Shown: positions 1,863 through 19,146 of the stretch, piece after piece
Layout: every line of letters starts with the position of its first letter
How positions within the stretch are numbered: position 1 is the stretch's first letter
Assembly (NCBI GenBank): GCA_944367045.1
Contig: CALVWI010000017.1
Coordinates: forward strand, 1-35,720
DNA: 35,720 nucleotides
Direction of reading: 5' to 3'
Source of the DNA: an uncultured Clostridia bacterium
Lineage (GTDB): Bacteria > Bacillota > Clostridia > Christensenellales > Borkfalkiaceae
Position numbers and translations under genes: made by a program
Notes under the pieces: model-generated
The model's database searches: none
The model's input: the letters and a program-made list of their open reading frames with translations, nothing else
What the model was told of the DNA's origin: nothing

Positions 1863-1888
1863 AGCGGCCCGTTGGGGGCCGCTCTTTT
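1863..1888. terminator. Rho-independent terminator between convergent genes
   Basis: AGCGGCCC (1863-1870), loop GTTGG and GGGCCGCT (1876-1883) form a perfect 8-bp stem followed by CTTTTC. It sits between the stop codons of the rightward esterase and the leftward AraC gene. On the other strand the stem is followed by TTTCCCTTT, so it may serve both transcripts. Confidence 0.8.
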
Positions 1889-3108
1889 CATGATTCGATC
1901 TTGTATTGCTTCTGATAGAGGGTGGGCGTCGTGCCCGTGACCTTCTTGAAGACGTTCTGGAAATGGCTCTGCGAGGAAAAGGAGAGGTAGTTGGAGATGG
2001 CGGAGAGCGACTTATCCGAAAAGCGCAGCAGCCGCTTTGCCTCCTCGATCTTCTTCTGATTGATGTATTCGCCGATGGTCATGCCCGTCTCCGATTTGAA
2101 CTTGCCGCTGAGATACGAGCGGTTGGCCTTGCAGTAGTCGGCGATGTCGTCGATGGAGATCTTCGCGCAGATGTGCTCGTCGATGTAGTGCGCCGCCCTG
2201 TCCACGATGGGGTTGGTATAGGTCGGCTTGCGAAGGGCGGAGACGCGCTCTGCAAAGTTCACCGTGAAGCGGTAGACGATGAGGTCCGCCTCGTTGATGG
2301 TCATGCAGGCCTCCACCTTCTGAATGGCGATGTCCGAGAGCTGGAAGGCGATCTCGGGGCTCAGCCCGCCCGCAATGGCGGCGCGCGTCGAGAGGGTGAT
2401 GGCGACGATGGCGGTGTTCTTCGCCTGCCTCAGGGAGTTGGGCGCGACCTTTCCCGGCCGTCCGACGGGCGTCGTCGCCATGAGTTCCTTGAGCATATCG
2501 GGGCTGCCCGCGCGGATACATTCGAGCATCTTCTGCTCGAAGGAGAGCGTCGTGTGCCGCTCCACCTCGTCGTACTGCATGAGCTCGCTGAAGTGGAACA
2601 TCTCGCGGAAAGCCGACTGCATGAGCTGTTCGCCGCGCTCCGCGTTTTCGAGCGTGAGCGAGTGGATGGTGATGAGCTCTCGGTTGACGGAAAGGTACAG
2701 AAAGGAGAGCATTCCGATGACGTAGTGGAAGGGGATGACGGGCGCATAGTAGAGGTAGTCGTGAAAGACCTTCCGCTGCTCCTCGGGCACATCGTAGTAA
2801 AAGGCGATGCTGCGGAAGTCGTTGTCCGACAGCTGCGAGAGGCACGCGGGCCCGATGAGGAAGCTGTAGCCCTCCTGCGCGCGCACGAGGCCGAAGAAGA
2901 GCTTGTCGTCCGCGATCTCATAGGTGACGGGCTCGCCCTTTTCAAAGAGCTTTTCAAAGTGACGGCGGGCGGGCGAGGTCTCGGGCGGCGGGAGCGTGAT
3001 GGCGGAGAAGTCCCTGAAGAGTTCTTGTTCCCGATAGACGGAGATGGGAACGCCGCACAGCCCGTTGAAGAGCCGCGCCATTTCACAAATAAAGTCAGAA
3101 TATTCCAT
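1888..3108 (-). CDS. AraC-family transcriptional regulator of the glycan locus
   Basis: A 406-residue protein. The last ~100 residues (about 305-406) carry the two helix-turn-helix units of the AraC/XylS domain, seen in ISIDDIADYCKANRSYLSGK and then the LSAISNYLSFSSQSHFQNVF stretch with the G-T-T-P-xx-Y ending. The first ~300 residues form a sensory region I cannot assign, probably binding a sugar effector. The ATG at 3108 is chosen over a longer frame (to 3180) because AGGGGG lies upstream of it and because the longer start would place the predicted promoter inside the gene. It is divergent from the GH78 rhamnosidase and flanked by its operon. A direct-repeat operator in the intergenic region overlaps its own promoter, so it probably activates the sugar genes and limits its own transcription, as AraC does at araC/araBAD. 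Confidence 0.88.
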   Translation of the reverse strand: MEYSDFICEMARLFNGLCGVPISVYREQELFRDFSAITLPPPETSPARRHFEKLFEKGEPVTYEIADDKLFFGLVRAQEGYSFLIGPACLSQLSDNDFRSIAFYYDVPEEQRKVFHDYLYYAPVIPFHYVIGMLSFLYLSVNRELITIHSLTLENAERGEQLMQSAFREMFHFSELMQYDEVERHTTLSFEQKMLECIRAGSPDMLKELMATTPVGRPGKVAPNSLRQAKNTAIVAITLSTRAAIAGGLSPEIAFQLSDIAIQKVEACMTINEADLIVYRFTVNFAERVSALRKPTYTNPIVDRAAHYIDEHICAKISIDDIADYCKANRSYLSGKFKSETGMTIGEYINQKKIEEAKRLLRFSDKSLSAISNYLSFSSQSHFQNVFKKVTGTTPTLYQKQYKIES

Positions 3109-3124: not shown

Positions 3125-3140
3125 TGTGAATTTCGACACA
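3125..3140 (+). promoter_or_regulatory. CRP/FNR-like palindrome, copy 1
   Basis: TGTGA (3125-3129), six bases, ACACA (3136-3140): one mismatch from TGTGA-N6-TCACA, the consensus recognised by CRP-type regulators. It lies upstream of the direct-repeat operator at nearly the same position as the perfect copy at 5974-5989. Which protein binds it is unknown; no CRP-family gene is in the window. Confidence 0.45.
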
Positions 3141-3151
3141 GATTTGCTATA

Positions 3152-3180
3152 ATTATACAATAAAAGCAACGATTGTGCAA
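3152..3180 (-). promoter_or_regulatory. Promoter of the AraC-family gene, overlapped by its operator
   Basis: Reading leftward, TTGCAC (complement of 3175-3180) and TATAAT (complement of 3152-3157) are 17 bp apart, with a start expected near 3145 and a leader of about 37 bases to the ATG at 3108. The -35 box is part of the right operator half-site and the -10 box covers the left one, so a bound regulator would occlude this promoter. The TATAATTATA at 3148-3157 is a palindrome, so a -10 can be read on either strand. Confidence 0.6.
3153..3179 (+). promoter_or_regulatory. Predicted AraC-type operator, copy 1 (direct repeat)
   Basis: Two directly repeated half-sites, TTATACA (3153-3159) and TTGTGCA (3173-3179), start 20 bp apart, about two helical turns. 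The surrounding 33 bases (3151-3183) match 6001-6033 upstream of the solute-binding protein at 26 positions with no gap. A TAGAAT at 3202-3207 lies 29 bp from the right half-site start, exactly as TATAAT does in the second copy, and no good -35 box is present. This is the layout of an activator-dependent promoter. Assigning it to the neighbouring AraC protein is inference. Confidence 0.65.
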
Positions 3181-3201
3181 TACTTGTACGAGAAAATGGT
3201 G

Positions 3202-3207
3202 TAGAAT
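3202..3207 (+). promoter_or_regulatory. -10 box of the rhamnosidase promoter
   Basis: TAGAAT at the position that aligns with TATAAT 6052-6057 of the second co-regulated promoter. A start near 3214 would leave a very short leader containing AAGGAGG before the ATG at 3233. The position opposite -35 is taken by the right operator half-site, which suggests dependence on an activator. Confidence 0.55.
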
Positions 3208-3232
3208 GGGAGGAAAAAAGGAGGAAAATTTG

Positions 3233-5947
3233 ATGAAGATTTACGACTTCCGCGCCGTCGAGGCGGCAGGGGGCTTTTGCCGTGCGGCGCGCCCGCACTT
3301 TTCGTGGAAATTGAAGTCCGATGAGAGGGACACGGTGCAGACGAAGTACACGCTCACCGTCCTTCGCGAGGGCGTTCCCGTGCAGAAGGCAGCGGGCGAG
3401 GGGGAGAGCGTCTACATCCTCCCCGAGGGCGAGGAACTTGCCTCCCGCACGGGCTACGAGGCGCGCCTCACCGTCTCGGACAACCATGGCAACACGGACG
3501 AGTGTGTCCTCTCCTTTGAGACAGACAAGCTCTCCGAGCCCTTCACCGCCAAGATGATCGCCCCGAAGGAGCAGATCGCGCCCGTCTATGCCCTGAAGGG
3601 GAAGTTTACAGCAAAGAAGCCCGTCAAAAGAGCGCGGCTGTATGCGACGGCGCTCGGCCTCTACGAGTGCTATGTGGGCGAAAACAAGGCGGGCGACAGC
3701 TACTTTGCGCCCTTTTGGACGAGCTATCACCACGCTCTCGAGTATCAGACATATGACGTGACTTCCCTCGTGAAGGCGGGTGAAAACGATTTCACCATGC
3801 TCATCGGCAAGGGATGGTATGCGGGCAAGCTCGGGTTCATGTCGCAGAGCGGCCTCTACGGCGACCGCACGGCGGGCATGGCGGAACTGCACCTTACTTA
3901 CGAGGACGGTTCCGAGGACGTGTTCGTGACGGACGAAACATTCACGGCGTCCACCTGTTTTATTTCGGACAGCGAATTCTACATGGGCGAGACGCAGGAC
4001 TTCACCGCGGAGACAAAGACCTGCCCCGTCGAAGCTGTCGACTATTCCATGAAGGTGGTGGGGCAGCTCAACGAGCCCGTCCGCTGCTGCGAGACGCTGA
4101 AGCCCGTCAAGGCATTCCATACGCCGAAGGGTGAGTACGTCCTCGATTTCGGGCAGAACTTCACGGGCTTTGTGTCCCTCGAAATTGACGGCGAGCGGGG
4201 AGAAAAGCTCACCCTGCGCCATGCGGAGGTGCTCGATAAGGAGGGCAACTTCTACACCGAGAATTTGCGCGAAGCCAAGAGCGAGGACAATTTCACCCTT
4301 GCGGGCGGGAAGCAGGTCTTAATACCGCACTTCACCTTCCACGGCTTCCGCTATCTTCAGATCATCGGGAGAGAGATCGCGCCCGAAAACGCCTGCGGCC
4401 TCGTCCTGCATTCGGACATGAGGGAGACGGGCAAGTTCGAGTGCTCGGACGCGCGCGTCAACCGCCTCTGGCAGAACATCGTGTGGGGGCAGCGGAGCAA
4501 CTTCGTGGACGTTCCCACCGACTGCCCGCAGCGCGACGAGCGTCTCGGCTGGACGGGGGACGCCAACGTGGTCTTCCGTACGGCGGCGTTCAATTACGAC
4601 GTCTCCTCCTTCTTCAATAAGTGGCTATGTGACCTCGCGGCCGATCAAAGCGAGAGCGGCGATATGCCGAACGTCATTCCCAACGTCTTGGGTGCAGAGA
4701 GCGGCGCGGCGCTGTGGGGCGACTGCGCGACGATGATCCCGTGGAACGAGTACCTCGTCTACGGCGACAAGGACGCTTTACGCGCGCACTTCCCCGCCAT
4801 GAAGAAGTGGGTGGACTGCATTTACAACAAGTGCGGCGCAAACGGGCTGTGGCAGAGCGGCTTCCAGTACGGCGACTGGCTCGCGCTCGACGGCTCCAAC
4901 CCCGCGACGCGCACGGGCGCGACGGACAAGTACTTCGTCGCCAACGTCTTCTACTGCGTCTCCACGCGCTGCGTGGCGCTTGCGGCGGAGGCTCTCGGCG
5001 AGGACGCCCTCGCGAAGGAATACTTCGAACGCGCCGACGCCATCAAGAAGGCGTTCTGCAACGAATATCTCACGAACACCGGCCGCCTCGTCTCCGAGAC
5101 GCAGACGGCGTGCGTGCTCGCGCTCCACTTCGACATGGTGCCCGAAGCGATGCGCCCCCGCATCATCGAGACGCTCAGGGGCAACCTCGCCGAGCACAAG
5201 AACCACCTCGTCACAGGCTTTGCGGGCACGCCTTACCTTCTCTTTGCGCTCAGTGAGAACGGCATGCACGACCTCGCCGAGAAGCTCCTCTTCCACGAGG
5301 ATTTCCCTTCGTGGCTGTACGCGGTCAAGATGGGGGCGACGACCATCTGGGAGCGCTGGGACGGCATTCTTCCCGACGGCTCCCTGCATGAGCCCTCGAT
5401 GAACTCCTTCAATCACTACTCCTACGGCTCGGTGGGGGACTGGCTGTACCGCTGCGTCGCAGGCCTGCGCGAGACTTCACCCGGCTATCGCACCTTAAAG
5501 CTCGCGCCCACGCTCACGAGGGGGCTCGAGTACGTCCGCGCCGAGTTCGAGAGCGTCTACGGTACCGTCGTCTCGGGCTATGAGTGCAGGGCGGGCAAGC
5601 TCCGCGTGTTCGTGACCGTGCCCGTCGGCTGCACGGCGGAAGTCGTCCTTCCCGAGCATGAGAGCGTCACCGTCGGCAGCGGCTCCTATGAGTGGACCTT
5701 TGAAACGGAGACCGACCTCTCGCACAAGCGCTTCACGATGGAAACGACGTTCGGCGCCATCGCCTCCATGCCCGAGGGGAAGGCCATCTTGAATGAGCTA
5801 TCGCCCGGCATTCTCGACGGCCCCATGATCGCCTTCGCGTATGATATGACCCTCTCAGAAGTGTGCGCCTTCTCGGGCGAGCAGGGCGTGAAGCTCTTTG
5901 AGGCCGTTTTGCAAAGACTCAACGCTCTTCCTGTTACAAAGCAGTAA
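3233..5947 (+). CDS. Alpha-L-rhamnosidase, GH78, intracellular
   Basis: A 904-residue enzyme removing terminal alpha-L-rhamnose. It has the GH78 bacterial rhamnosidase layout: N-terminal beta domains, an (alpha/alpha)6 barrel from about residue 410, then a C-terminal beta domain. The hallmark DCPQRDERLGWTGD carries Asp435 and Glu436 (probable general acid), and Glu707 in IWERWDG is the probable base. There is no signal peptide, so substrates must be imported. The ATG at 3233 follows AAGGAGG; an upstream in-frame extension would start inside the regulatory region. After the C-terminal domain comes an extra helical tail, about residues 834-904 (TTFGAIASMPEGKAI and onward), resembling the tail of the GH3 enzyme at 11332. 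The AraC-family gene is divergent, and the sugar importer follows after 140 bases with its own promoter. Confidence 0.93.
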   Translation: MKIYDFRAVEAAGGFCRAARPHFSWKLKSDERDTVQTKYTLTVLREGVPVQKAAGEGESVYILPEGEELASRTGYEARLTVSDNHGNTDECVLSFETDKLSEPFTAKMIAPKEQIAPVYALKGKFTAKKPVKRARLYATALGLYECYVGENKAGDSYFAPFWTSYHHALEYQTYDVTSLVKAGENDFTMLIGKGWYAGKLGFMSQSGLYGDRTAGMAELHLTYEDGSEDVFVTDETFTASTCFISDSEFYMGETQDFTAETKTCPVEAVDYSMKVVGQLNEPVRCCETLKPVKAFHTPKGEYVLDFGQNFTGFVSLEIDGERGEKLTLRHAEVLDKEGNFYTENLREAKSEDNFTLAGGKQVLIPHFTFHGFRYLQIIGREIAPENACGLVLHSDMRETGKFECSDARVNRLWQNIVWGQRSNFVDVPTDCPQRDERLGWTGDANVVFRTAAFNYDVSSFFNKWLCDLAADQSESGDMPNVIPNVLGAESGAALWGDCATMIPWNEYLVYGDKDALRAHFPAMKKWVDCIYNKCGANGLWQSGFQYGDWLALDGSNPATRTGATDKYFVANVFYCVSTRCVALAAEALGEDALAKEYFERADAIKKAFCNEYLTNTGRLVSETQTACVLALHFDMVPEAMRPRIIETLRGNLAEHKNHLVTGFAGTPYLLFALSENGMHDLAEKLLFHEDFPSWLYAVKMGATTIWERWDGILPDGSLHEPSMNSFNHYSYGSVGDWLYRCVAGLRETSPGYRTLKLAPTLTRGLEYVRAEFESVYGTVVSGYECRAGKLRVFVTVPVGCTAEVVLPEHESVTVGSGSYEWTFETETDLSHKRFTMETTFGAIASMPEGKAILNELSPGILDGPMIAFAYDMTLSEVCAFSGEQGVKLFEAVLQRLNALPVTKQ

Positions 5948-5973
5948 AACGAGAGTGGTAATATTTCTCTTTC

Positions 5974-5989
5974 TGTGAGAACTTTCACA
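5974..5989 (+). promoter_or_regulatory. CRP/FNR-like palindrome, copy 2 (perfect consensus)
   Basis: TGTGA (5974-5978), GAACTT, TCACA (5985-5989), a perfect TGTGA-N6-TCACA. Its centre is about 81 bases upstream of the expected start of the solute-binding-protein transcript and just upstream of the direct-repeat operator. Alternatively it is the stem of a weak hairpin after the rhamnosidase gene, but it lacks a T-tract. Confidence 0.5.
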
Positions 5990-6002
5990 AAATAAGTGAT
6001 AA

Positions 6003-6057
6003 TTGTGCAGAAAAAGCGACGCTGGTGCAATACAAGCGCCGCTTTTTCTACTATAAT
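6003..6057 (+). promoter_or_regulatory. AraC-type operator copy 2 and promoter of the importer operon
   Basis: Half-sites TTGTGCA (6003-6009) and TGGTGCA (6023-6029) start 20 bp apart in the same orientation, followed by TATAAT at 6052-6057. There is no recognisable -35 hexamer; its place is covered by the end of the right half-site (AATACA). The arrangement is superimposable on 3153-3207. A start near 6064 gives a leader of about 24 bases with AGGGAGG before the ATG at 6088. Predicted to be activated by the AraC-family protein at 1888-3108. Confidence 0.65.
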
Positions 6058-6087: not shown

Positions 6088-7968
6088 ATGAAGAAGTGGA
6101 AAACCATTGGCACGGCAGCGCTTGCAGTCCTCATGACGGCGGGCACTGCGGGCGCGCTCGCGGGTTGCGGAGGCAATTCCGGCGACGCAGACACCTTTAC
6201 CATCTGGATGGCGTCCTCGGTCAACAGCTCGATCTACAACGACTACGGCGAGAACCCGTTCATCCAGTATCTGGAGAAAAGATTCGACATCAATCTCGAA
6301 TTTACGACTCCCATGCTCGGCAAGGAGCTTGAGGACTTCAACAAGCTCATCGGTTCCGGGTCCTATCCCGATATTATGGACCTTTCGTTTTACACCGACT
6401 CCATCGCGCTTCTCTACGATGACGGCTACGGCGCTGCGATGGACCTCACGCAGTACATTGCGGACTACATGCCCAACTATTCCAAGTTCATGGAGGACAA
6501 TACTCAGTTCACGCAGTATGCGAAGATCGACGGCATGTATCTTACCCTCAACAACTACAACGAGGCCATTCCCAATCAGTGGGGCGGCTGGATGTATCGC
6601 CGTGACTGGATCGTCGACTACGGTGAGTCTCAGACAAAGGGCAGTTATTCCTCCGTCGAAGAGGTAGAGGCGGCACTCTCCCAAGGGAGCTCGGAGCGAA
6701 CGGGCGGGTTTATCGAACCTGTTGCGGACGACAGCTATGAGGGCGGCTATGCCTATGCGGACGGCATCGTCTTTCCGGACGGCATCCTGACGGCGGACGG
6801 TTATGACAACCCCCTCACTCTCCGCGACTGGGAGTGGATGTTCGAGATCTTCATGCAGAACGACTACTGCGAGTACTGCATCTCGCTTCCGAATATCGGC
6901 TATCACGGCACGGGCGAACTTCTGAGCGCGTTCGGCGTAGGCCCCCTCTGGAACGCCTATGATGACGGCACGGGCACCTTTTCCGAGATCAAGTTCGGTC
7001 CCACCGAGGACGGCTACAGAAGGTACCTCGAGAAGATGAACGAGTGGTACGAAAAGGGCTGGCTCGATCCCAACTTCACCTCGACGAGCGGCGATATGTT
7101 CTACGCCATCGACGGCGAGTCCATCACTTCGGGTGTCGTCGGCATGTGGTACGGCACGACCGGTCAGCTCGGCGATCACCTTGCGCAGTCCTCCACGCAG
7201 ACCATCGCGGCGCTTGAAGGCATTGACGCCTGGGGCGCACGTCAGCCGAGAGAGGGCTACGGCGCAAGGGATGAGGCGTCAGGGATGTACACGGACGATC
7301 CATCCGTCTTCTACCTCGACTCGCAGGAGACCTCCCGTCGCTGGATCGTGACGGACGCCGCCGAGGGCAAGAACCTCGAAAAGCTCTTTACGATGCTTGA
7401 CTGGCTGTATTCGGAAGAGGGAAGCATCATCAAGACCTACGGGCTCTCCACCAAAGAACTTGAAGAGTATGACATCGACACGTCTCTTCTTGAGGAGTAC
7501 GGCCTTCTCGAGGAAGGCTGCTGGTGGTGGGCTGATGAGGACGGCAACCGCGTGGAAGAGGGGACCCCGGGCGCGAAAGTGTTCGTGAACTCCAAGATCA
7601 AGAACGCGACAGGTGACATCTCAGTTGCAACCAACGGCGTCTACTTTTTCGGCCTCGGCTATGATGCCCGCGGCCTCGAGTATGATCAGGAACCCTTCGT
7701 CAGGTCCCATGCCTATGACGAATGGGCGGCTTACAACAACTACGGCACGCTCACGGGCAGCTTTACCTCGCAGTTCACCATCGATGAGGGCTCTGCTTAC
7801 AACGCCACGCAGGAGACCATCCGCGAGTACCTTGGCAAGGAAGTTCCCACACTCATCAAGAGCGGCGTTACGGATGCAAACTGGAACGCATTCCTCGGCG
7901 CGCTCCGCACCCGCAAGTGCGACAGCAACACCGAACTTCTGCAGAGCCTCTACGACAGGCTGCACTAA
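6088..7968 (+). CDS. Extracellular sugar-binding lipoprotein of an ABC importer
   Basis: A 626-residue protein with a basic, hydrophobic signal and lipobox L24-A-G-C27 followed by GGNSGDAD, so Cys27 should be lipidated and the protein held on the outer face of the membrane. The body has the aromatic-rich pattern of family 1 solute-binding proteins of the long LplA/YtcQ group that serve complex oligosaccharides (residues about 35-626). It precedes a second lipoprotein and two matching permeases, with no ATPase in the operon, as is usual when a shared MsmK-type ATPase is used. Given GH78 and GH3 in the locus, the ligand is probably a rhamnose-containing oligosaccharide or glycoside; this is inference. 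It has its own copy of the direct-repeat promoter. Confidence 0.9.
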   Translation: MKKWKTIGTAALAVLMTAGTAGALAGCGGNSGDADTFTIWMASSVNSSIYNDYGENPFIQYLEKRFDINLEFTTPMLGKELEDFNKLIGSGSYPDIMDLSFYTDSIALLYDDGYGAAMDLTQYIADYMPNYSKFMEDNTQFTQYAKIDGMYLTLNNYNEAIPNQWGGWMYRRDWIVDYGESQTKGSYSSVEEVEAALSQGSSERTGGFIEPVADDSYEGGYAYADGIVFPDGILTADGYDNPLTLRDWEWMFEIFMQNDYCEYCISLPNIGYHGTGELLSAFGVGPLWNAYDDGTGTFSEIKFGPTEDGYRRYLEKMNEWYEKGWLDPNFTSTSGDMFYAIDGESITSGVVGMWYGTTGQLGDHLAQSSTQTIAALEGIDAWGARQPREGYGARDEASGMYTDDPSVFYLDSQETSRRWIVTDAAEGKNLEKLFTMLDWLYSEEGSIIKTYGLSTKELEEYDIDTSLLEEYGLLEEGCWWWADEDGNRVEEGTPGAKVFVNSKIKNATGDISVATNGVYFFGLGYDARGLEYDQEPFVRSHAYDEWAAYNNYGTLTGSFTSQFTIDEGSAYNATQETIREYLGKEVPTLIKSGVTDANWNAFLGALRTRKCDSNTELLQSLYDRLH

Positions 7969-7990: not shown

Positions 7991-9331
7991 ATGAAATTCC
8001 GTAAATTTTTGACGATCGGCATCGCGGCGCTCACCGTTGCCGCATTCAGCTTTGGCCTTGCAGCCTGCAAGCCCGATACGGAGGATCCTGGCAAGGATCC
8101 CGAAACTCCCGGCGGCGATACGCCCGTGGCTCCCGCGGAAGTCACCGTGGAAGGCGGCTACGGTTACTATCCCCCCGATCAGGGCGGCATCGGCCTCGAG
8201 CTCAACCTTTACGAGGACGGCACCTACTATTACTCGCAGTTCACCTCCGTCCTCTACAGCGGCACCTACACCGCCGAGGAGGCATCGGGTACGGACGAGG
8301 ATGGCAACACCATTCACTACACGGTCACGTTCGACGATCAGGTCAACTTTGGTGAGGAGACGCATAACATCGTCTCCGATGCGGATGGCACGGTCTACCT
8401 CACGAATATGTACGACGACATGAGCCTCACGACCTACAACTTCTCCAAGCAGGACGACTACCTCGAGGAAGTCGTGCAGACGGTGGAGCAGTTCTGGAGC
8501 ACCAACTTTGCGGAGGATTTCGTCACGGCGACCTTCTATTCGGATAACTCCTACACCCTCGACGGCATCAACGGCGCCGGCTATGCTGGCTCGTTGGGCA
8601 CCTATACGTCTGAGACCGCGGAGGACGGCACCGTCACTTACACGATGACGGACGGCGACGACAGCTCCAAGGTCTACACCATCACCGTTGTCGGCGCGTC
8701 CATTACTCTGACGGGCACTGAGACGGACTACACGATGACCTCCATCAACCCCAACCTCGTGGTTGAAGTGGAGTTCACGGGCAGCAACAGCTGGGGTGCG
8801 GCAGTCGTGCTTACCTGCTATGACGACTCGTCCGCCAACCTTCAGATCACGATGGAAGGCGTCATGGACTTCGCCGATGCAACGGGTACCTGGCAGTATA
8901 TGTCGGACGGCGACTACTACGTCTTCGTGTTTGGCGGCACCGTCTACACGGCCGAGAATACCGACGGGACCTATTCCTTCTCCTACAAGATCAATGCGGC
9001 GCAGTTTGGCGGCGAGGAGGTCACGCTCTCCTATACGCTGGAAGAGCCTCTCATCTCCTATTCCTTCACCTACACGCCTGTTCTGAGCTATGCGGCGGGA
9101 GAGACGGTGAACATGGTCTGTAACAGCGTCGCGGGCGCCGAGGAGTACACCTTCACGGGCAGCATCTGGGACGGTGCATGCACCTTCACGATCGTCTGCG
9201 CGGCGGACGGCACCTGCTCGGGTACCACTTCCTACGCGACCGACGAAGGGGAGGGCACCTGGTCCCAGGCGGACGGCGTCATCACCATTGAGATCAACGG
9301 CACGACTTACACGGCGACGGCCGGAGAGTAA
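7991..9331 (+). CDS. Repeat-containing lipoprotein of unknown function
   Basis: A 446-residue protein with signal peptide and lipobox L23-A-A-C26, then an acidic Pro/Gly/Asp linker (27-50). The body is rich in Thr, Tyr, Gly and Asp and appears to hold four diverged beta-repeats, anchored near residues 68-94, 177-206, 269-302 and 394-425. Each has an alternating hydrophobic strand, an Asp-rich turn (EDGTY, SDNSY, DDSSA, ADGTC), and then G-T-Y/W. I recognise no named family. It lies between the binding protein (22-base gap) and the permeases, so it is expressed with the importer and sits on the cell surface. It could be an accessory glycan-binding protein that feeds the transporter; that is a guess from position and fold type. 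A strong hairpin follows the stop codon. Confidence 0.75.
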   Translation: MKFRKFLTIGIAALTVAAFSFGLAACKPDTEDPGKDPETPGGDTPVAPAEVTVEGGYGYYPPDQGGIGLELNLYEDGTYYYSQFTSVLYSGTYTAEEASGTDEDGNTIHYTVTFDDQVNFGEETHNIVSDADGTVYLTNMYDDMSLTTYNFSKQDDYLEEVVQTVEQFWSTNFAEDFVTATFYSDNSYTLDGINGAGYAGSLGTYTSETAEDGTVTYTMTDGDDSSKVYTITVVGASITLTGTETDYTMTSINPNLVVEVEFTGSNSWGAAVVLTCYDDSSANLQITMEGVMDFADATGTWQYMSDGDYYVFVFGGTVYTAENTDGTYSFSYKINAAQFGGEEVTLSYTLEEPLISYSFTYTPVLSYAAGETVNMVCNSVAGAEEYTFTGSIWDGACTFTIVCAADGTCSGTTSYATDEGEGTWSQADGVITIEINGTTYTATAGE

Positions 9332-9402: not shown

Positions 9403-10404
9403 ATGCAGACAGTAGAAAACGTAGCTTCTGTGGGCGTGGAAGAGGAAGCCGTCGATCCCCGCGAACTGCGCCGGCGCAAGCGTCAGGACAAGCACGAGCG
9501 GTGGGTCAAGGACATGAAGCGGGATTATCCTATCTATCTCCTGTTCATTCCCATTGCAGTTTTCTTTATCATCTTCAACTATGTTCCGATGTTCGGTATC
9601 ATCATTGCCTTCAAGGACTACCGCCCCGGTCGCGGTGTGTTCGGAAGCGAGTGGGCAGAGATGCACGGCTTCGAGAACTTTTACAATCTCTTTTCCAACG
9701 AGTCCTTCCCCAAGGTGTTCCGCAATACCTGCGTCATGGCGGCGATGAACCTCACCATCGGCTTCGCGGCACCCGTCCTCCTCGGTCTGCTTCTTTCGCA
9801 GGTCCGCATCAAGCCCTTCAAGCGCGTTGCGCAGACGGTCAGCTATATGCCTTACTTCGTTGCGACCGTCGTCGTGTGCTCGCTCATCAAGGACTTCATG
9901 AGCGATACGGGCGTCATCACCGACCTCTTCGTGGCGCTGGGGGCAAATCGGGAGGATATGCTCACCAATCCCAAGTACTTCTGGTGGATCAATACGCTCG
10001 CCGGTGTCTGGCAGGGTGCGGGGTACGGCTCCATCGTGTATGTGGCGGCCATTTCCAACATCAATCCCGACCTGCACGAAGCGGCGGCTCTCGACGGCGC
10101 GGGCAGATGGCAGCGGCTCATCCACATCACCATCCCCAGCATCATCCCGACCATCATCATGATGTTCACGATGTCCGTCGGCACCGTCTTCATGACGGGC
10201 TTCGATAAGGTGCTCCTTCTCTACAACGAGAGCATTTACGACACGGCAGACTGCCTTTCGACGTTCACCTACCGCTGGGGCGTCGTTCAGAACAACTACG
10301 GGCTTTCTTCGGCGGCAGGTCTCTTCCAGTCCGTCATCTCGACGGCGCTCCTGCTCCTTTCCAACAAGCTGACGAAAGTTGCGGCGAAGACCTCGCTCTT
10401 CTAA
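9403..10404 (+). CDS. Sugar ABC transporter permease (LplB type)
   Basis: A 333-residue inner-membrane protein with a charged cytoplasmic N-terminus (1-45), a first transmembrane segment at about 46-68 and about six segments in total. The permease-ATPase contact loop is visible as EAAALDGAGRWQRLIHITIP from residue 226. The pattern matches LplB-type permeases of the CUT1 sugar importer family. It pairs with the next gene to form the heterodimeric channel for the lipoprotein at 6088. The start follows AAGGAGGG. No ATP-binding subunit is encoded nearby; the ecfA genes at 25.4 kb belong to a different transporter class and are not candidates. Confidence 0.93.
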   Translation: MQTVENVASVGVEEEAVDPRELRRRKRQDKHERWVKDMKRDYPIYLLFIPIAVFFIIFNYVPMFGIIIAFKDYRPGRGVFGSEWAEMHGFENFYNLFSNESFPKVFRNTCVMAAMNLTIGFAAPVLLGLLLSQVRIKPFKRVAQTVSYMPYFVATVVVCSLIKDFMSDTGVITDLFVALGANREDMLTNPKYFWWINTLAGVWQGAGYGSIVYVAAISNINPDLHEAAALDGAGRWQRLIHITIPSIIPTIIMMFTMSVGTVFMTGFDKVLLLYNESIYDTADCLSTFTYRWGVVQNNYGLSSAAGLFQSVISTALLLLSNKLTKVAAKTSLF

Positions 10405-10416
10405 GGAGGGATCATC

Positions 10417-11322
10417 ATGGCAAAAGTGAAAACCAAATACAGGAACGGCGGCATGGTCGAAAAGAACAGCGTGCTCGGCTGGATCGCGGATATCATCATC
10501 TACGCGCTCCTTGTCGTCATGATGTTCATCTGCGTCATCCCGCTCTGGTACTCCCTCGTCGCCTCCTTCTCGGACGGCTTTACCCTCTACAATTCCGAGG
10601 GCATGATCTGGTTCCCCGTGGGGGAATGGACGCTTGCGGGCTATGAGCACGTCTTCGCTTCCAACAACGTCCTGCGCGGGTACCTCAATACCATCATCTA
10701 TGTCGTCGGCGCGACGCTGCTCGGCTTTGTCCTCAACGTGCTTGCGGGCTATGTCTTAAGCCGCAGCACCCGTTACCGCGGCATCATGATCTTGTTCGTC
10801 ATGTTCACGATGATGTTCAACGGCGGCCTCATCCCGACGTACATCGTCATGCGCGCTTTGGGCTTTGTCAACAGTCCGCTTGCGATCATCATCCCCACCT
10901 GCACGAACGCCTACTTCATGATCCTCATGATGAACGCCTATCTCGGCGTGCCGCAGTCCACGGTGGAAGCCGCAGAACTCGACGGCGCGGGGCATTTCCG
11001 CCTCATGTTCCAGATCTGCCTTCCTCAGTGCATGAGCATCGCGACGGTCGTCCTCCTTTACAGCGTCGTCTTCCAGTGGAACTCCTGGTTCCAGGCATAC
11101 GTCTATCTGTCCACGGCGCGTGAATGGTGGCCTCTGCAGCTTGTCGTCAACAACATGATCAGCGAAAACACCAACTTCATGCAGTCGGGCAATATCGACT
11201 ATTCGCGCTATCTCATCCAGTACGGCCTCGTCGTCGTTGCGACCATTCCCATCCTCTGCGTGTTCCCGTTTTTCCAGAAGTATATTGAGAAGGGCGCGGT
11301 GCTCGGCGGCGTCAAAGAATAA
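10417..11322 (+). CDS. Sugar ABC transporter permease (YtcP/AraQ type)
   Basis: A 301-residue membrane protein, partner of the preceding permease, with a first transmembrane segment at about 25-50 and the contact loop EAAELDGAGHFRLMFQICLP from residue 184. The C-terminus ends in KGAVLGGVKE, typical of this subgroup. It starts 12 bases after the previous stop behind AAGGAGGG and ends 9 bases before the GH3 gene, which shows one transcription unit. Function: the second half of the translocation channel for the oligosaccharide bound by the 6088 lipoprotein. Confidence 0.93.
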   Translation: MAKVKTKYRNGGMVEKNSVLGWIADIIIYALLVVMMFICVIPLWYSLVASFSDGFTLYNSEGMIWFPVGEWTLAGYEHVFASNNVLRGYLNTIIYVVGATLLGFVLNVLAGYVLSRSTRYRGIMILFVMFTMMFNGGLIPTYIVMRALGFVNSPLAIIIPTCTNAYFMILMMNAYLGVPQSTVEAAELDGAGHFRLMFQICLPQCMSIATVVLLYSVVFQWNSWFQAYVYLSTAREWWPLQLVVNNMISENTNFMQSGNIDYSRYLIQYGLVVVATIPILCVFPFFQKYIEKGAVLGGVKE

Positions 11323-11331
11323 GGAGAACTC

Positions 11332-13707
11332 ATGGACATCAAGAAACTTCTACAAGAACTCACGCCCGAGGAAAAGGCAAGGCTCGTTGCAGGAGTCAAC
11401 TTCATGTATACCGCTCCCGTCGGGCGCCTCGGTATCCCGTCTCTTTCGATGGCAGACGGCCCTCACGGCCTCCGCAAACAGACGAGCGGGGGAGACAACG
11501 GCGTCTCGATGAGCGAGCCTGCAACATCCTTCCCGACGGCGGCGACCGTTGCCTCAGGCTGGGATCCCGAAAACGCCAGAAAGGTGGGGGAGGGCATCGC
11601 CGAAGAGTGCATGCACTACGGCGTCAACGTCATCCTCGGCCCGGGCGTCAACATCAAGCGCAACCCCCTGTGCGGCAGAAACTTTGAGTACTATTCCGAG
11701 GATCCCTTCCTCGCCTCCGAAATGGGCATCGGCGAGGTGGAGGGCGTGCAAAGTAAGGGCGTTGGCGTCTCCGTCAAGCACTTCGCCTTCAACAACACGG
11801 AGGACCACCGCTTCGTCGGCAACAGCGTCGTCGACGAGCGCGCCGCCCGCGAACTCTACCTCAAGGTGTTCGAGCGCGTCGTCAAGGAGGCCAAGCCCGC
11901 GACGCTCATGTGCGCCTACAACGCCGTCAACGGCACCTTCTGCTCGGAGAACAGGACGCTCCTCACCGATATTTTGCGCGGCGAGTGGGGCTTTGACGGG
12001 CTCGTCATGACCGACTGGGGCGCGACGCACGACCGCGTCGATTCCCTCAAGGCGGGGCTCGATCTCGAGATGCCCGGAAACACCGAGTACTGCCGCAAGC
12101 GCATCATGGAGGGCCTTTCGGACGGCTCGCTCCCCATGGAGGCGCTCGACAAGGCCGTCGGGAACATCCTGAAGCTCGTCGAGAAGTACGCCGTCGGCGC
12201 GGAGCGGAAGGAGGCCGACTTCGAAGCGCATCACGCGATGGCAGCGGAGATCGCCGCCGATTGCGCCGTGCTCTTGAAGAACGACGGCGTCCTGCCCCTC
12301 ACGGGCAAGGAAAAGCTGCTCGTCGTCGGGGAGATGTTCGAGAATATGCGCTATCAGGGCGCGGGAAGCTCGATGATCAACCCCACACGAGTCACTTCCC
12401 CCAAGGAGGCGTTCGACAAGAAGGGTATCTCTTACACCTACTGCAAGGGCTACACGGAGAGCGGCGCCAACGCCCTCGAACTGCGCACGGAGGCCTTCCA
12501 AGCGGCAGAGAGCGCCGATACCGTCCTCGTGTTTGCAGGGCTCGACGACATGTCGGAAGGGGAGGGCTACGACCGCGAGAACATGCGCATGCCGCAGCAG
12601 CAGCTCGACCTCATCGACGCGATGCTCGCAGCGGGCAAGAAAGTCGCGGTGGTGCTGTTCGGCGGCTCGCCCATGGAACTTCCCTTTGCGGACAGGGTGA
12701 ACGCCATCCTCGACATGTACCTACCGGGCCAAAACGGCGGCACGGCGGCAGCGGAGCTTCTCTACGGCGAGAAGAACCCCTCGGGGCACCTTGCCGAGAC
12801 ATGGCCCATGCACTATTCCGACGTTCCCTTCGGCGACGTGTTCGCAAAGAAGGTCAACGAAGTCTACAAGGAGAGCGTGTTTGTCGGCTACCGCTACTAC
12901 ACGACGGCGGAAAAACAGGTGCGCTATCCCTTCGGCTACGGCCTCTCCTATACGACGTTCGACTATACCGCATCGCCCGCAATTGTGAACGGGGACACCG
13001 TCTCCGTCACCTGCGGCGTCAAGAACACCGGGGATCGTGCGGGCTCTGCCGTCCTCCAAATTTACGTTTCCTCCCGCGAGGGCGGCATCCCGCGTCCCAT
13101 GAAGGAGCTCAAGGCCTTCCAAAAGGTGCGCCTTGCGGCGGGCGAGAGCAAGGAGGTGACGCTCTCCTTCAAGACGGACGATTTGAAGGACTATATTCCC
13201 GGCGAGGGCTGGAAGCTCTTCAAGGGCACCTATACGGTGCACGTCGCGACGGACGTCCTCACCGACATCGCAGTCTCCGACATCGTCTTGGACGGCGAGG
13301 AGCCCGTCTCCGACCCCCTCTTCTACGGGGCGAAGGAGGTGCCTTTTGTCACGGACGAGCAGTTCGAAGCGATGAGCGGGCTCACCATCCCGAAGGAACC
13401 CGAAGCCGCGCCCTTCACGCTTTTGACGCGCTTCATCGATATGCAGGCGACGCCCGCGGGCAAGGCCATCTACGAGCAGATGCAGGGGCCTTCCAACCGG
13501 CTTCTTGCCGAGGCCGCAAAGCTTCCCGAGGGTGACGACAAGTTCAACATGGTCAAGGGAGCGGTGTTCCTCAGACGCATCATCGACACGAGCTCGCTTC
13601 TCTCCCTCGTGATGAACTCGGGCGGCCAGCTCCCGTACGAAATGGCGCTGCATATGCTCGCAGCCGCCAACGGCGAACTCCCCGCAAATCAAGCTCCCAC
13701 AACGTAA
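11332..13707 (+). CDS. Beta-glycosidase, GH3 (beta-glucosidase-like), intracellular
   Basis: A 791-residue enzyme without signal peptide. It has the GH3 N-terminal barrel with nucleophile Asp228 in GLVMTDWGA, the substrate-pocket signatures NIKRNPLCGRNFEYYSEDP and KHFAFNN, the GH3 C-terminal domain (YLPGQNGGTAAAELLYG), and a fibronectin III-like domain (about 555-650, GYGLSYTTF to KELKAFQKV). A helical tail of about 110 residues (QATPAGKAI and onward) ends the protein. GH3 members include beta-glucosidases and beta-xylosidases; exact specificity cannot be read here. As the last gene of the importer operon it would cleave the beta-linked sugar left after the GH78 enzyme removes rhamnose, as needed for rutinose- or neohesperidose-type glycosides or plant oligosaccharides. 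Confidence 0.93.
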   Translation: MDIKKLLQELTPEEKARLVAGVNFMYTAPVGRLGIPSLSMADGPHGLRKQTSGGDNGVSMSEPATSFPTAATVASGWDPENARKVGEGIAEECMHYGVNVILGPGVNIKRNPLCGRNFEYYSEDPFLASEMGIGEVEGVQSKGVGVSVKHFAFNNTEDHRFVGNSVVDERAARELYLKVFERVVKEAKPATLMCAYNAVNGTFCSENRTLLTDILRGEWGFDGLVMTDWGATHDRVDSLKAGLDLEMPGNTEYCRKRIMEGLSDGSLPMEALDKAVGNILKLVEKYAVGAERKEADFEAHHAMAAEIAADCAVLLKNDGVLPLTGKEKLLVVGEMFENMRYQGAGSSMINPTRVTSPKEAFDKKGISYTYCKGYTESGANALELRTEAFQAAESADTVLVFAGLDDMSEGEGYDRENMRMPQQQLDLIDAMLAAGKKVAVVLFGGSPMELPFADRVNAILDMYLPGQNGGTAAAELLYGEKNPSGHLAETWPMHYSDVPFGDVFAKKVNEVYKESVFVGYRYYTTAEKQVRYPFGYGLSYTTFDYTASPAIVNGDTVSVTCGVKNTGDRAGSAVLQIYVSSREGGIPRPMKELKAFQKVRLAAGESKEVTLSFKTDDLKDYIPGEGWKLFKGTYTVHVATDVLTDIAVSDIVLDGEEPVSDPLFYGAKEVPFVTDEQFEAMSGLTIPKEPEAAPFTLLTRFIDMQATPAGKAIYEQMQGPSNRLLAEAAKLPEGDDKFNMVKGAVFLRRIIDTSSLLSLVMNSGGQLPYEMALHMLAAANGELPANQAPTT

Positions 13708-13754: not shown

Positions 13755-13785
13755 GGCCGCGTATCTTCGGATGCGCGGCCTTTCC
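13755..13785 (+). terminator. Terminator with UUCG tetraloop
   Basis: GGCCGCGTATC (13755-13765), TTCG, GATGCGCGGCC (13770-13780) form an 11-bp stem with one G-U pair, closed by the very stable C(UUCG)G loop and followed by TTTCC. It marks the end of the glycan-utilisation operon. The rest of 13708-13823 shows nothing recognisable. Confidence 0.8.
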
Positions 13786-14443: not shown

Positions 14444-15379
14444 ATGGAGCACTACATCACAGCATTGAGCGAGAGCGTCGTGCGCGAACGCGTCACCTTC
14501 CAAAACCGCTTCGGCATCGAGCTCTCCGCCGACCTCTACACCCCCAAGGAGCATGAGGGGAGGCTGCCCGCGCTCGTCGTGGGCCCTCCCTACGGCGGTG
14601 TCAAGGAGCAGGGCCCGTGCGTCTGGGCGAACGGCCTTGCGGAGCGCGGCTTCGTCGTCCTCGCCTTCGACCAGCCCTTCATGGGCACGAGCGGCGGCAC
14701 CGTGCGGAACGTCGCCTCGCCCGAACTCTTCACCGAGTCCTTCTCTGCCTCCGTCGACTATCTCGGCCTCCTTCCCTATGTCGATAGAGAAAAGATCGGC
14801 GCGGTGGGCATCTGCGGGAGCGGTGGGTTTGCGCTCTCCGCGGCGCAGTGCGACGTGCGCATCAAGGCCCTCGTCACGGCGAGTATGTATGACATCTCCT
14901 ATGCCGTCCGCATGGGGCAGACGCGCGAGCAGCTCGAGGAACACAAAAAGCAGCTTTCGATGAAGCGTTGGGAGGATGCGGAGAAGGGGACGCCCGAGTG
15001 CATCCTGAGCTACCCCGAGACCCCGCTCGAGGAAATTCCAAAGGGTATCCCCGAGCCCGCTGCCGAGTTCATGCGTTTCTATGCGATGAAGCGCGGCCAT
15101 CACCCCAATGCCCGTGGCGGCTTCACGACGACGAGCGACCTCTCGTTCATGAACTTCCGTCTGCTCGACTACATCGGCGAGATCTCTCCCCGTCCCATCC
15201 TCTTCATCGTGGGGGACAGGGCACACTCCCGCTTTTTCAGCGACATCGCCTATAAAAACGCCAATCAGCCCAAGGAGATGTACGTCGTCGAGGACGCCGA
15301 GCACATCGACCTCTACGACAGGACGGACAAAATTCCTTTCGACTACGTTGCAAAATTTTTTACGGATAACTTAAAGTAA
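14444..15379 (+). CDS. Alpha/beta hydrolase (YcjY/dienelactone-hydrolase-like)
   Basis: A 311-residue cytoplasmic hydrolase. The nucleophile elbow is G-I-C-G-S-G-G (about 123-129), the likely acid is the Asp in FIVGDRAHS (about 256) and the likely catalytic base is the His in VEDAEHIDLYD (about 287). The N-terminal strand region has VVGPPYGGVKEQ where the oxyanion loop is expected. The pattern resembles the YcjY-like esterase/peptidase group, but the substrate is not visible. The gene follows the acetyltransferase by one base, using the AGGG inside its end, and precedes an FMN reductase by 12 bases. I cannot tell whether this trio works on sugars or on xenobiotics. Confidence 0.75.
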   Translation: MEHYITALSESVVRERVTFQNRFGIELSADLYTPKEHEGRLPALVVGPPYGGVKEQGPCVWANGLAERGFVVLAFDQPFMGTSGGTVRNVASPELFTESFSASVDYLGLLPYVDREKIGAVGICGSGGFALSAAQCDVRIKALVTASMYDISYAVRMGQTREQLEEHKKQLSMKRWEDAEKGTPECILSYPETPLEEIPKGIPEPAAEFMRFYAMKRGHHPNARGGFTTTSDLSFMNFRLLDYIGEISPRPILFIVGDRAHSRFFSDIAYKNANQPKEMYVVEDAEHIDLYDRTDKIPFDYVAKFFTDNLK

Positions 15380-17154: not shown

Positions 17155-17260
17155 GGGCGAAGAGTAGCCAAGGCGCGTCAAGTGCTGCGAAACGGGACGT
17201 TGTTCGCAGACGAAAGGGAAATCCCTGCGGTGCCGCGGTGCGTCCGCTTGATCTGCGCCC
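17155..17260 (+). ncRNA. Tetrahydrofolate (THF) riboswitch
   Basis: The leader matches the THF riboswitch: AGAGTAG (17161-17167), GCGTCAAGTG (17175-17184), GGGACGTTGT (17194-17203), CGAAA (17211-17215), GCGGTG (17227-17232) and TGCGTCCGCT (17239-17248), in the known order. Pairings support it: P1 GGCG (17156-17159) with CGCC (17256-17259); stem CTGCGAA (17185-17191) with TTCGCAG (17203-17209); hairpin GGG-AAAT-CCC (17216-17225); and long-range GGACG (17195-17199) with CGTCC (17241-17245). It starts at the predicted transcription start and precedes a folate-transporter gene, the classic context. It should reduce folT expression when reduced folates are plentiful. Confidence 0.9.
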
Positions 17261-17317: not shown

Positions 17318-18007
17318 ATGTCTGAAATCGTCAAGAGGGCAGCTTCCAACGCGCCCATCCCCGAACCAAGCCCCAAGCGCCCGTCTCTTTTGAAGCGCCT
17401 TCTCTTTTCCGATGTGCTTCTCTTTCGTTCCAATGCGCATAAGGTCGCCTACATCGGCGTGATGGCCGCGCTCTGCATCGCCGTCAACACGTTTGAGATC
17501 AAGTTTGCCGACGTGCAGTTCTCTTTCAGCCTGTTCACGGCGCTCCTTTCGGGCGTCGTCTTAGGGCCGCTCCCCGGGGCATGCGCCGTGTTCATCGGAG
17601 ATTTGTTCGGGTACCTTTTAAACAGCGCGGGAATGTACTATTACTGGTGGGTGGCGTTCTCCCTGATGCTCATGTCCGTCATCGCGGGGCTCTGTATGCG
17701 CCTTCCCATGCGTTTCAAGGGGAGCCTCTTTGTCAAGCTCGCCATCGTCTCCGCGCTCACCTTCACGCTCTGCACGGTGTTCATTAACTCCTTGGGGATG
17801 TACTACATCGGCAACACGATCTTCGTCTCGCAAAAGCTCATCGATGCCATCAACGCGCGCTTTGACGGCGTGTGGACGTTCTGGAACTACGTCTTTGTCC
17901 GCCTCTTTGTGTTGGGGCAGATCTACAACAGCATCTTAAACTATGTTCTCGCCTTCCTGGCCATTCCGCTTTTGAATGCGGTAAAGCCCTTAAAGCTCGG
18001 CCTTTGA
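17318..18007 (+). CDS. folT: Folate ECF transporter S component FolT
   Basis: A 229-residue membrane protein with a charged N-terminal tail (1-40) and about six membrane segments. The stretch KVAYIGVMAALCIAVNTFEI at about 42-61 is the S-component start with its small-residue helix 1, used to dock EcfT. The layout matches folate-family ECF S components, and the upstream THF riboswitch makes folate much more likely than another vitamin. It captures folate outside and delivers it through the EcfA1-EcfA2-EcfT engine, which is encoded 7.4 kb downstream (25424-27968). The ATG follows a sequestered GGGAGG. An 11-bp inverted repeat lies after the stop. Confidence 0.88.
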   Translation: MSEIVKRAASNAPIPEPSPKRPSLLKRLLFSDVLLFRSNAHKVAYIGVMAALCIAVNTFEIKFADVQFSFSLFTALLSGVVLGPLPGACAVFIGDLFGYLLNSAGMYYYWWVAFSLMLMSVIAGLCMRLPMRFKGSLFVKLAIVSALTFTLCTVFINSLGMYYIGNTIFVSQKLIDAINARFDGVWTFWNYVFVRLFVLGQIYNSILNYVLAFLAIPLLNAVKPLKLGL

Positions 18008-18023: not shown

Positions 18024-18050
18024 GAAAGTCAACCAACGCGGTTGACTTTC
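18024..18050. terminator. 11-bp inverted repeat: folT terminator and/or lgt operator
   Basis: GAAAGTCAACC (18024-18034), loop AACGC, GGTTGACTTTC (18040-18050) is a perfect inverted repeat 17 bases after the folT stop. A weak pyrimidine tail (TCTGCT) follows, so it may end folT transcripts. Its right arm contains TTGACT, the -35 box of the lgt promoter, so it could equally be a binding site. Confidence 0.6.
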
Positions 18051-18071: not shown

Positions 18072-18102
18072 AGACCCGATAACACCTCAGGGAGGTGCAG
18101 TT

Positions 18103-19146
18103 TTGCACACGCTTTTACTCGCAAGCAACGGCCCGCTCTTCGGCATCAATGAGCGCGGCATCATCATATTCGGCTTTGAGGTCTACTTCTACGCCATCTG
18201 CATCGTGGCGGGCATGATCCTCGCCGCCTATCTCTCGGCGCTCCTCATGCGGCGGCGCAACATCAACAACGACCTCATCTTAACGCTCTTCATCGTCTGC
18301 ATTCCCTCGGCGCTCGTCTGCGCGCGCCTCTACTACTGCATCACGGACGGCATGCCCATTGCCCAGTGGTTCGCGTGGGAATCTATCCGCAACGGGGGAC
18401 TCAGCATCCTCGGCGGCGTGATGGGCGGCGTTTTGGCAGGGCTCATCGTCTGCCTCGTCAAGAAGATCGACTTCCTGCGCGTTGCAGACTGCGTCGTCCT
18501 CAATATCCTCGTCGCGCAGGCGATGGGGCGGTGGGGCAACTTCTTCAACAAGGAAGTGTACGGCGCGGAGGTCACCAATCCCGCCTTCCACTGGTTCCCG
18601 TTCGCGGTGCCCGTCAGTCCGAGTGGCAGCATCTTCGGCATCGGCTCCTTCTCCGACCCGAGCGCCGAGTGGCACTACGCCTTCTTCTTCTACGAGAGCT
18701 GCATCAACCTCATTGGCTGGGCGCTCCTCTTCTGGGCCGCGTGGAAGTGGGACAAAAAGCCCAACGGCCTGTTTGTATGCGCCTACTTCGTGTGGTACGG
18801 CCTCGTGCGCTCCATCATGGAGCCCCTCCGCGACAGCTCCTTCATTCTCTCGGGCGGCGGCGTGCCGTGGTCGCTCGTCACGTCCATCATCCTGATGGTC
18901 GCGGGCCTCATCGGCGCGGGCGTGCTGCTCTTTATCAACTACCGAAAGGAGGGTTCGCTCATCGGCAGCAAGAAGGGGGACCCCTGCGGCATCACCGAAT
19001 ACATCAAGGCGTATAAGGACGATGTTCCCTACTACGACAAAATAAATATGCTGGGTGCGAACTATTCGCCCGCCCCGGTCACGGAAAAGAAGAGTAAGAA
19101 AAACAAGAAAGACAGCGACGACAACGAGCCGCCCAAGGAGCAGTAA
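18103..19146 (+). CDS. lgt: Prolipoprotein diacylglyceryl transferase
   Basis: A 347-residue membrane enzyme that adds diacylglycerol from phosphatidylglycerol to the lipobox Cys of prolipoproteins, the first step of lipoprotein maturation. The Lgt signature GRWGNFFNKEVYG starts at Gly142 and includes Arg143 and Asn146; later YGLVRSIMEPLRDSSF holds the second conserved Arg/Glu region. About seven membrane segments are apparent. The start is TTG, 6 bases after GGGAGGTG; no ATG or GTG fits the N-terminus. A soluble Lys-rich tail (about 310-347, KKSKKNKKDSDDNEP) extends beyond the usual end. Its stop lies one base before pncB. The substrates certainly include the two lipoproteins at 6.1-9.3 kb. 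Confidence 0.95.
   Translation: MHTLLLASNGPLFGINERGIIIFGFEVYFYAICIVAGMILAAYLSALLMRRRNINNDLILTLFIVCIPSALVCARLYYCITDGMPIAQWFAWESIRNGGLSILGGVMGGVLAGLIVCLVKKIDFLRVADCVVLNILVAQAMGRWGNFFNKEVYGAEVTNPAFHWFPFAVPVSPSGSIFGIGSFSDPSAEWHYAFFFYESCINLIGWALLFWAAWKWDKKPNGLFVCAYFVWYGLVRSIMEPLRDSSFILSGGGVPWSLVTSIILMVAGLIGAGVLLFINYRKEGSLIGSKKGDPCGITEYIKAYKDDVPYYDKINMLGANYSPAPVTEKKSKKNKKDSDDNEPPKEQ

Follow-up and report, generated by a model that had tools for sequence, protein, structure and literature searches.

Two noncoding sequences that resemble each other lie on either side of an α-L-rhamnosidase gene in a 35,720-nucleotide stretch of DNA from an uncultured Clostridia bacterium (assembly GCA_944367045.1, contig CALVWI010000017.1; the whole stretch is called the window below), and a gene for an AraC-type regulator is located next to them. 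The locus raises the question of whether these sequences are operators of the adjacent regulator and, if so, how the promoters beside them are controlled. A preliminary description, made from the DNA sequence of the window, had proposed that two promoters answer to this regulator in the manner of AraC. We conclude that the product of the regulator gene (the 1888-3108 protein) very probably activates two promoters by a class II AraC-type mechanism and negatively regulates its own gene. The assembly under study, G000, comprises 1,886,991 bases in 46 contigs.

Two candidate operators and their conservation

The regulator gene, the two candidate operators and the promoter elements next to them are as follows (G001 is a genome of the same genus):

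1888 to 3108, minus strand: AraC-type regulator gene, 406 amino acids, helix-turn-helix (HTH) domain at about residues 299-402 (Pfam)
3144 to 3159, plus strand: left half-site of operator 1, A-box TTGCTATAA and B-box TTATACA, conserved in G001
3164 to 3183, plus strand: right half-site of operator 1, A-box AAGCAACGA and B-box TTGTGCAATAC, extending into the -35 position
3202 to 3207, plus strand: -10 element TAGAAT of the rhamnosidase promoter, 29 bp past the start of the right B-box
5994 to 6009, plus strand: left half-site of operator 2, A-box AAGTGATAA and B-box TTGTGCA, conserved in G001
6014 to 6033, plus strand: right half-site of operator 2, A-box AAGCGACGC and B-box TGGTGCAATAC
6052 to 6057, plus strand: -10 element TATAAT of the binding-protein operon promoter, 29 bp past the start of the right B-box

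The regulator has the C-terminal double HTH domain of the AraC/XylS family. Pfam HTH_18 matched residues 323-401 (1.5e-19; 70.5 bits, cut-off 33.6), and HTH_AraC matched in two stretches (1.3e-17; 63.9 bits, cut-off 26.6). The closest NCBIfam model, TIGR04094 (YSIRK-adjacent regulator), is related and scored 149.2 bits, under its cut-off of 200. The RhaS and RhaR models of NCBIfam scored 41.4 of 288 and 45.1 of 363, which fails equivalog assignment, and an arabinose-binding domain was not among the matches of the Pfam scan.

The preliminary description had aligned bases 3151-3183 with bases 6001-6033 without a gap at 26 of 33 positions, and this count was reproduced. None of 1000 dinucleotide shuffles of both intergenic stretches reached it (maximum 24, mean 18.7). 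The best other match of either 33-mer in the window, on both strands, was 21 (at 5981 on the plus and 6025 on the minus strand, both overlapping operator 2), and the best match outside the operators was 19. The resemblance of the two stretches is beyond chance. The claimed spacing was likewise found, with heptamers starting at 3153/3173 and 6003/6023, and TAGAAT at 3202 and TATAAT at 6052 each begin 29 bp past the start of the right heptamer. The claimed lack of a -35 element also agrees with our data: among the listed sigma-70-type pairs, none on the plus strand uses either -10. The view that the heptamers are the half-sites stood as regards their spacing and had to be corrected as regards their extent. 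The heptamers are B-boxes only, each site covers about 16-20 bp, and the half-sites start 9 bp upstream of the heptamers, at 3144, 3164, 5994 and 6014. Direct half-sites about two helical turns apart, with the proximal one lying over a weak -35 and separated from the -10 by a constant interval, characterize class II activation, and both features are present here.

A search of 101 genomes, the window's own included, retrieved matches to the regulator at E 1e-60 or better in four, and the sole close orthologue found was that of G001 (60% identity, E 2e-163). G001 keeps the gene order regulator, rhamnosidase-like gene, binding-protein-like gene, and has both operators. Between the window and G001, the operator cores agree at 37/41 (operator 1) and 36/41 (operator 2) positions, the 30-bp upstream flanks at 15/30 and 10/30, and the spacers to the -10 at 11/18 and 15/18, the last of these carrying the 3′ arm of a hairpin described below. 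The preliminary description had named absence of the motif beside orthologues as evidence against its proposal; G001 has retained both operators next to its regulator of 60% identity.

When our own genome (1.89 Mb) was searched for the motif together with the -10, allowing up to 3 mismatches, three places were found, two in the window and one at contig C9:62363, compared with none for the reversed control; because the pattern came from these sites, only its rarity counts as evidence. In 301 family genomes, up to 2 mismatches gave 15 matches in 8 genomes (6 in G000, 3 in G001, 1 in G299 and one each in five others). The reversed control gave 3, and the five single-match genomes are therefore about at chance level.

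Two other elements were considered and set aside. CRP/Rex-like dyads, TGTGAATTTCGACACA (3125-3140) and TGTGAGAACTTTCACA (5974-5989), lie upstream of both operators, some 82 bp ahead of each estimated target start; they were excluded from the system, G001 keeping only a TGTGA or CGTGA arm. A third half-site, suggested 20 bp before operator 2, was dropped, being absent from G001.

Half-sites of the regulator clade and the first recognition helix

Related regulators were collected in two sets. In 103 genomes of the genus, a search with a nine-sequence alignment (E 1e-50 or better) yielded 25 clade members, spread over 11 genomes; G000 carries five at the same threshold. The second set, of named loci, was limited to the best 80 among 364 from Clostridia and Paenibacillus, and six loci are common to both sets. 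At each locus, 300 bp upstream of the regulator, in the direction leading away from it, were scored for TGCAAKAC with a -10 placed 29 or 30 bp off (cut-off 12/14), irrespective of whether a divergent gene follows. The B-box with its -10 was present upstream of 44/80 named regulators (0.5 expected from shuffles) and of 20/25 same-genus regulators (0.1 expected), and the opposite-strand control gave 1/80 named loci. The arrangement of right half-site and -10 noted in the window is thus a recurrent one. The working set contained 63 operators (56 unique), from 44 of the 80 named loci and 19 same-genus loci. G374:C28, G299:C3 and G001:C9 (score 11) were left out, as were the partial matches G000:C1 (score 9) and G001:C1 (score 8), and G001:C19 was counted as the named copy L061.

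The -10 is located at 29 bp in 40 and at 30 bp in 16 of the 56 operators, the only distances that the selecting score permitted. An independent test of the fixed distance was provided by R1, a profile built from the 41-bp operator with the -10 excluded. Its 57 rows comprise 49 of the 56 unique operators, six others having been removed by hand, and 8 individually added sites, namely operator 1 of the window (identical to L048) and 7 copies that have no regulator beside them. R1 was run over the 103 genomes and the window's own genome, more than 150 matches were listed, and 21 non-training places, picked mainly for low E-value, were inspected. In regulator-bearing genomes, 15/16 inspected sites have a -10 of at least 4/6 at 29/30 bp, a match that is weak by itself because the check took the best of six offsets, and 13 of them reach at least 5/6. 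The lone exception is the weakest site (G000:C35, E 0.3). A -10 was present at 0/5 inspected sites in genomes without a clade regulator. Several inspected sites directly precede open reading frames (ORFs) that read as glycosidase- or sugar transporter-like. Among the matches listed, 27 are below 1e-4; 24 of these, many of them training sites, are in the 11 regulator-bearing genomes and 3 are elsewhere.

The position of the -10 bears on whether the protein could instead be mainly a repressor that blocks polymerase until a sugar releases it. The right site does overlap the -35 region, and occupancy of operator 1 must occlude the minus-strand promoter described below. However, the target promoters have no recognizable -35, which points to a need for an activator, and a fixed distance of 29/30 bp suits contact with polymerase. 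We consider a repressor highly improbable.

The 9 bases before the B-box, which the operator selection score ignored, repeat at a lag of 20 bp. In the 56 operators, 6.12 of 9 are identical, compared with 4.66 in permuted loci (z 9.9; 0/2000), and the other ten lags from 15 to 25 gave z values of 3.6 or less. It follows from this repeat that a half-site is made of an A-box, varying between regulators, and a B-box that hardly varies; the B-box is near-constant across the operators compared and nearly identical between paralogues. The direct half-site model of the preliminary description is backed by the repeat. For the window regulator, the A-box is about GCRA and the right B-box TGCA. At two places, L195 (G000:C27) and L190 (G027:C25), the half-sites are apparently 21 rather than 20 bp apart, and the L195 site precedes a transporter-like ORF.

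Distances between A-boxes correlated, without adjustment, with those of HTH1 helix 3 (r 0.47), the N-terminal part (0.44) and HTH2 (0.29). Once the N-terminal distance was removed, HTH1 helix 3 retained r 0.23 (0/2000) and HTH2 r 0.00; the spacer to the -10 gave r -0.01 against HTH1 with the same adjustment. When 386 variable protein columns were ranked against the A-box, the top three were 332, 331 and 335, all in the first recognition helix. Five of the top 10 fall in 324-339 (hypergeometric 1.4e-5), compared with 0 or 1 for four control operator stretches. In the control built on the three bases that precede TGCA, column 329 ranks first (r 0.37). As to individual pairings, Ser-Arg regulators mostly have AAAACAA (12 loci), Pro-Tyr regulators mostly TTACAA or ATACAA (16 loci), Gln-His regulators GCGACAA or GAGACAA (3 loci) and the Pro-Arg regulator TGCAACAA (1 locus), with exceptions among the tabulated loci.

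Residues 17-110 of MarA (1bl0) match residues 306-399 of the query over equal lengths, and the printed SoxS alignment agrees on columns 331 and 335. Provided that the match has no gaps and that the chain follows MarA numbering, these columns correspond to MarA Trp42 and Arg46. According to the available part of PMC3315485, Trp42, Gln45 and Arg46 of MarA helix 3 contact bases. The covariation of the A-box with helix 3 lends support to the AraC-type recognition proposed at the outset.

The same A-boxes bear on the identity of the protein. G000 has five clade members and the B-boxes of paralogues are nearly identical, so that another AraC-type paralogue might serve the operators in place of the adjacent regulator. 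Against this, operator 1 belongs to the upstream region of the regulator gene itself, G001 keeps both operators beside the orthologue, and the window A-box is unlike those upstream of the C26 and C45 paralogues. We regard service by a paralogue as quite unlikely.

The site at C9:62363 (L018:8353-8417) was rejected as a third target of the regulator. Despite a perfect match to the pattern of the preliminary description, its A-boxes, AGAATAA and ATCACACAA, are unlike the window's. It lies upstream of a GH31-like gene (named by its sequence, with no search), tblastn found no clade regulator in the 18 kb around it, and the corresponding sites in G001 and G299 are within about 7 kb of a C26-class regulator. 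A site on G027:C3 precedes a gene similar to the GH31-like one. That two promoters answer to the window regulator fits with the mismatch between its A-box and those of the third genomic site.

The C26 contig of G000 (L034) itself codes for a paralogous regulator and carries three nearby operators, at 1581-1645, 15171-15235 and 18101-18165, with CGGA in the A-box. One is located upstream of the regulator itself and two precede lipoprotein-like and transporter-like ORFs.

Overlap with the predicted promoter of the regulator gene

On the minus strand, operator 1 reads TTGCAC-N17-TATAAT, the predicted -35/-10 of the regulator gene, and both B-boxes lie within 3144-3183:

3175 to 3180, minus strand: -35 TTGCAC of the regulator promoter, inside the right half-site, with a 17-bp spacer; the layout is shared with related regulators
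3152 to 3157, minus strand: -10 TATAAT of the regulator promoter, overlapping the left half-site

Operator 1 thus appears to overlap the regulator's own promoter, as expected for autoregulation. The preliminary description was right to include the heptamer at 3153 in a half-site and missed that it doubles as the minus-strand -10 of the regulator gene. The odd TTATACA half-site is explained by this overlap.

A minus-strand -10 of at least 5/6 occurs at this place in 50/56 operators, 17 bp from TTGNNN, the TTG following from the selection of TGCAA; the minus-strand -35 reaches 4/6 in only 11/56. The left B-box has TA in all 56 operators upstream of clade regulators. Among 20 copies without an adjacent clade regulator, it has TG in 12 and TA in 8 (Fisher 4e-9 versus 56/56 TA), the 13 copies found with R1 dividing into 7 TG and 6 TA. 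The other 7 were found via patterns or scores asking for TRCA on the left, and the 20 are not independent, since some precede corresponding genes in different genomes. The set omits G027:C25b and G000:C27, where the half-sites are apparently 21 bp apart; both have TA, and with them TG is found in 12/22. The left box looks as if shaped toward a -10 where the regulator's promoter requires one.

One could suppose that the sequences at 3153 and 3173 merely serve the divergent promoter of the regulator, as its -10 and -35, and that the two stretches are alike due to duplication of promoter DNA. TTGCAC-N17-TATAAT is indeed a fair minus-strand promoter and its layout recurs upstream of related regulators. 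Operator 2 and the copies without an adjacent clade regulator nevertheless retain the right B-box, the spacing and the plus-strand -10, the left box of such copies is often TG rather than TA (12/20), away from a -10, and the A-box repeat and the helix-3 covariation require a bound protein. The chance that promoter duplication accounts for the data is, in our opinion, slight.

From the layout of the sites, their conservation, the 20-bp repeat, the helix-3 covariation and the overlap with the minus-strand promoter, we infer activation by the adjacent regulator, as follows. The 1888-3108 protein would bind two direct half-sites, 20 bp apart, in each operator, with HTH1 reading the regulator-specific A-box and HTH2 the near-constant B-box. 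The promoter-side B-box would enter the missing -35 position, and the bound protein, its second HTH next to polymerase, would replace the -35 and bring RNA polymerase to the -10, which begins 29 bp past the first base of the right B-box. This would switch on both the rhamnosidase gene and the operon of binding-protein, permease and GH3 genes, presumably upon binding of a rhamnose-containing sugar; the nature of this signal is guessed from the neighboring rhamnosidase and GH3 genes. Since the same B-boxes form the regulator's -35/-10, occupancy of operator 1 should cover both elements and shut the regulator's own promoter.

Several observations weigh against this reading. The repeat at a lag of 25 also exceeds all 2000 permutations, weakly (z 3.6); the left and right A-boxes inside a window operator agree only partly (about GC.A), and the window regulator's own A-box is known from two species. 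TTGCAC matches the -35 consensus at only 3/6 positions. Below the score cut-off were 36/80 named loci, all four Paenibacillus loci included, and 5/25 same-genus regulators. R1 matches at E 0.1 or better occur in 78/103 genomes, more than the E-values allow, which are therefore too generous. As to the covariation, the partial Mantel tests leave some shared ancestry, and without adjustment the A-box is followed nearly as closely by N-terminal distance as by helix 3. The top ten also include five columns from elsewhere in the protein (55, 284, 302, 152 and 141), and one spacer control has column 331 in second place (r 0.19).

Predicted target genes and related systems

The genes next to the operators, and a hairpin between them, are:

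3233 to 5947, plus strand: α-L-rhamnosidase gene, GH78-type domains (Bac_rhamnosid6H 8.5e-124 and four further Pfam domains)
6009 to 6049, no strand assigned: hairpin with flanking A and T runs, holding the right half-site of operator 2 (RNA folding)
6088 to 7968, plus strand: putative solute-binding lipoprotein, first gene of operon 2 (from its N-terminus and neighbors; no Pfam match)
7991 to 9331, plus strand: second putative lipoprotein of operon 2 (no Pfam match)
9403 to 11322, plus strand: two ABC permease genes (9403-10404 and 10417-11322), BPD_transp_1 in each
11332 to 13707, plus strand: GH3 glycosidase gene, last of operon 2 (GH3 domains)

The hairpin at 6009-6049 (GAAAAAGCG...CGCTTTTTC) folds as RNA with -19.8 kcal/mol (z -3.6) on the plus and -28.5 kcal/mol (z -9.1) on the minus strand. 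It is likely the terminator of the rhamnosidase transcript, and read-through from the rhamnosidase gene would stop just ahead of the second promoter. A terminator-like hairpin (13755-13780) follows the GH3 gene. Further downstream, a tetrahydrofolate riboswitch (17158-17251; Rfam RF01831, 67.2 bits) precedes an ORF at 17318-18007, apparently for a membrane protein. At 18024-18050, an 11-bp inverted repeat, GAAAGTCAACC/GGTTGACTTTC, contains in its right arm TTGACT, 18 bp from TATAAT; read from the sequence, with no folding, it is another hairpin that overlaps a -35.

E. coli AraC, acting at pBAD/pC through I1-I2, is the textbook case of class II action, and the window system resembles it in the HTH pair, direct half-sites about two turns apart, a proximal site over the -35 and a divergent, self-controlled regulator gene. 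The differences are a spacing of 20 bp instead of 21 bp and the B-boxes themselves forming the -35/-10 of the regulator promoter. MarA binds one A-box/B-box site as a monomer; here, two such sites stand in tandem, and the protein has an additional 300-residue N-terminal part. The division of each half-site into an A-box and a B-box is shared with the MarA/SoxS/Rob marbox, in which helix 3 enters the A-box and helix 6 the B-box (available parts of PMC3315485 and PMC11633057).

For AraC-family regulators that control rhamnose metabolism in Bacillales, Bacteroides and Enterococcus, the accessible part of PMC3870299 already predicts direct repeats with a periodicity of 21 bp; the periodicity here is 20 bp. 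The A-box/B-box split, the overlap with the regulator promoter and a residue code are not described in that part. E. coli RhaS and RhaR, according to the same part, are AraC-family activators of rhamnose genes with inverted repeats (17-bp half-sites and a 17-bp spacer for RhaR), unlike the direct half-sites found here, and the window regulator is far under the NCBIfam cut-offs for both. Titles and abstract beginnings of the open-licence literature did not reveal this grammar or a helix-3 code for the clade. As far as that literature shows, the clade-wide 20-bp grammar, the link between helix 3 and the A-box and an operator made from the regulator's -35/-10 are new.

We think it reasonably probable that a large clade of AraC-type regulators from gut Clostridia uses one grammar of paired half-sites spaced by 20 bp, with the A-box set by residues 331/332/335 and constant B-boxes doubling as -35/-10 of the regulator's promoter. 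If so, the targets of a regulator could be deduced from the sequence of the protein, and autorepression would be inherent in the operator. At the loci examined, the regulators stand beside glycosidase and sugar transporter genes of gut and rumen Clostridia that are mostly known from metagenomes. The window offers a clean case, in which one site may be both an activator operator and the regulator's -35/-10. Should both the grammar and the code in helix 3 prove correct, it would be possible to predict operators and regulons genome by genome, and pairs of sensors and promoters with differing A-boxes would be testable in laboratory strains.

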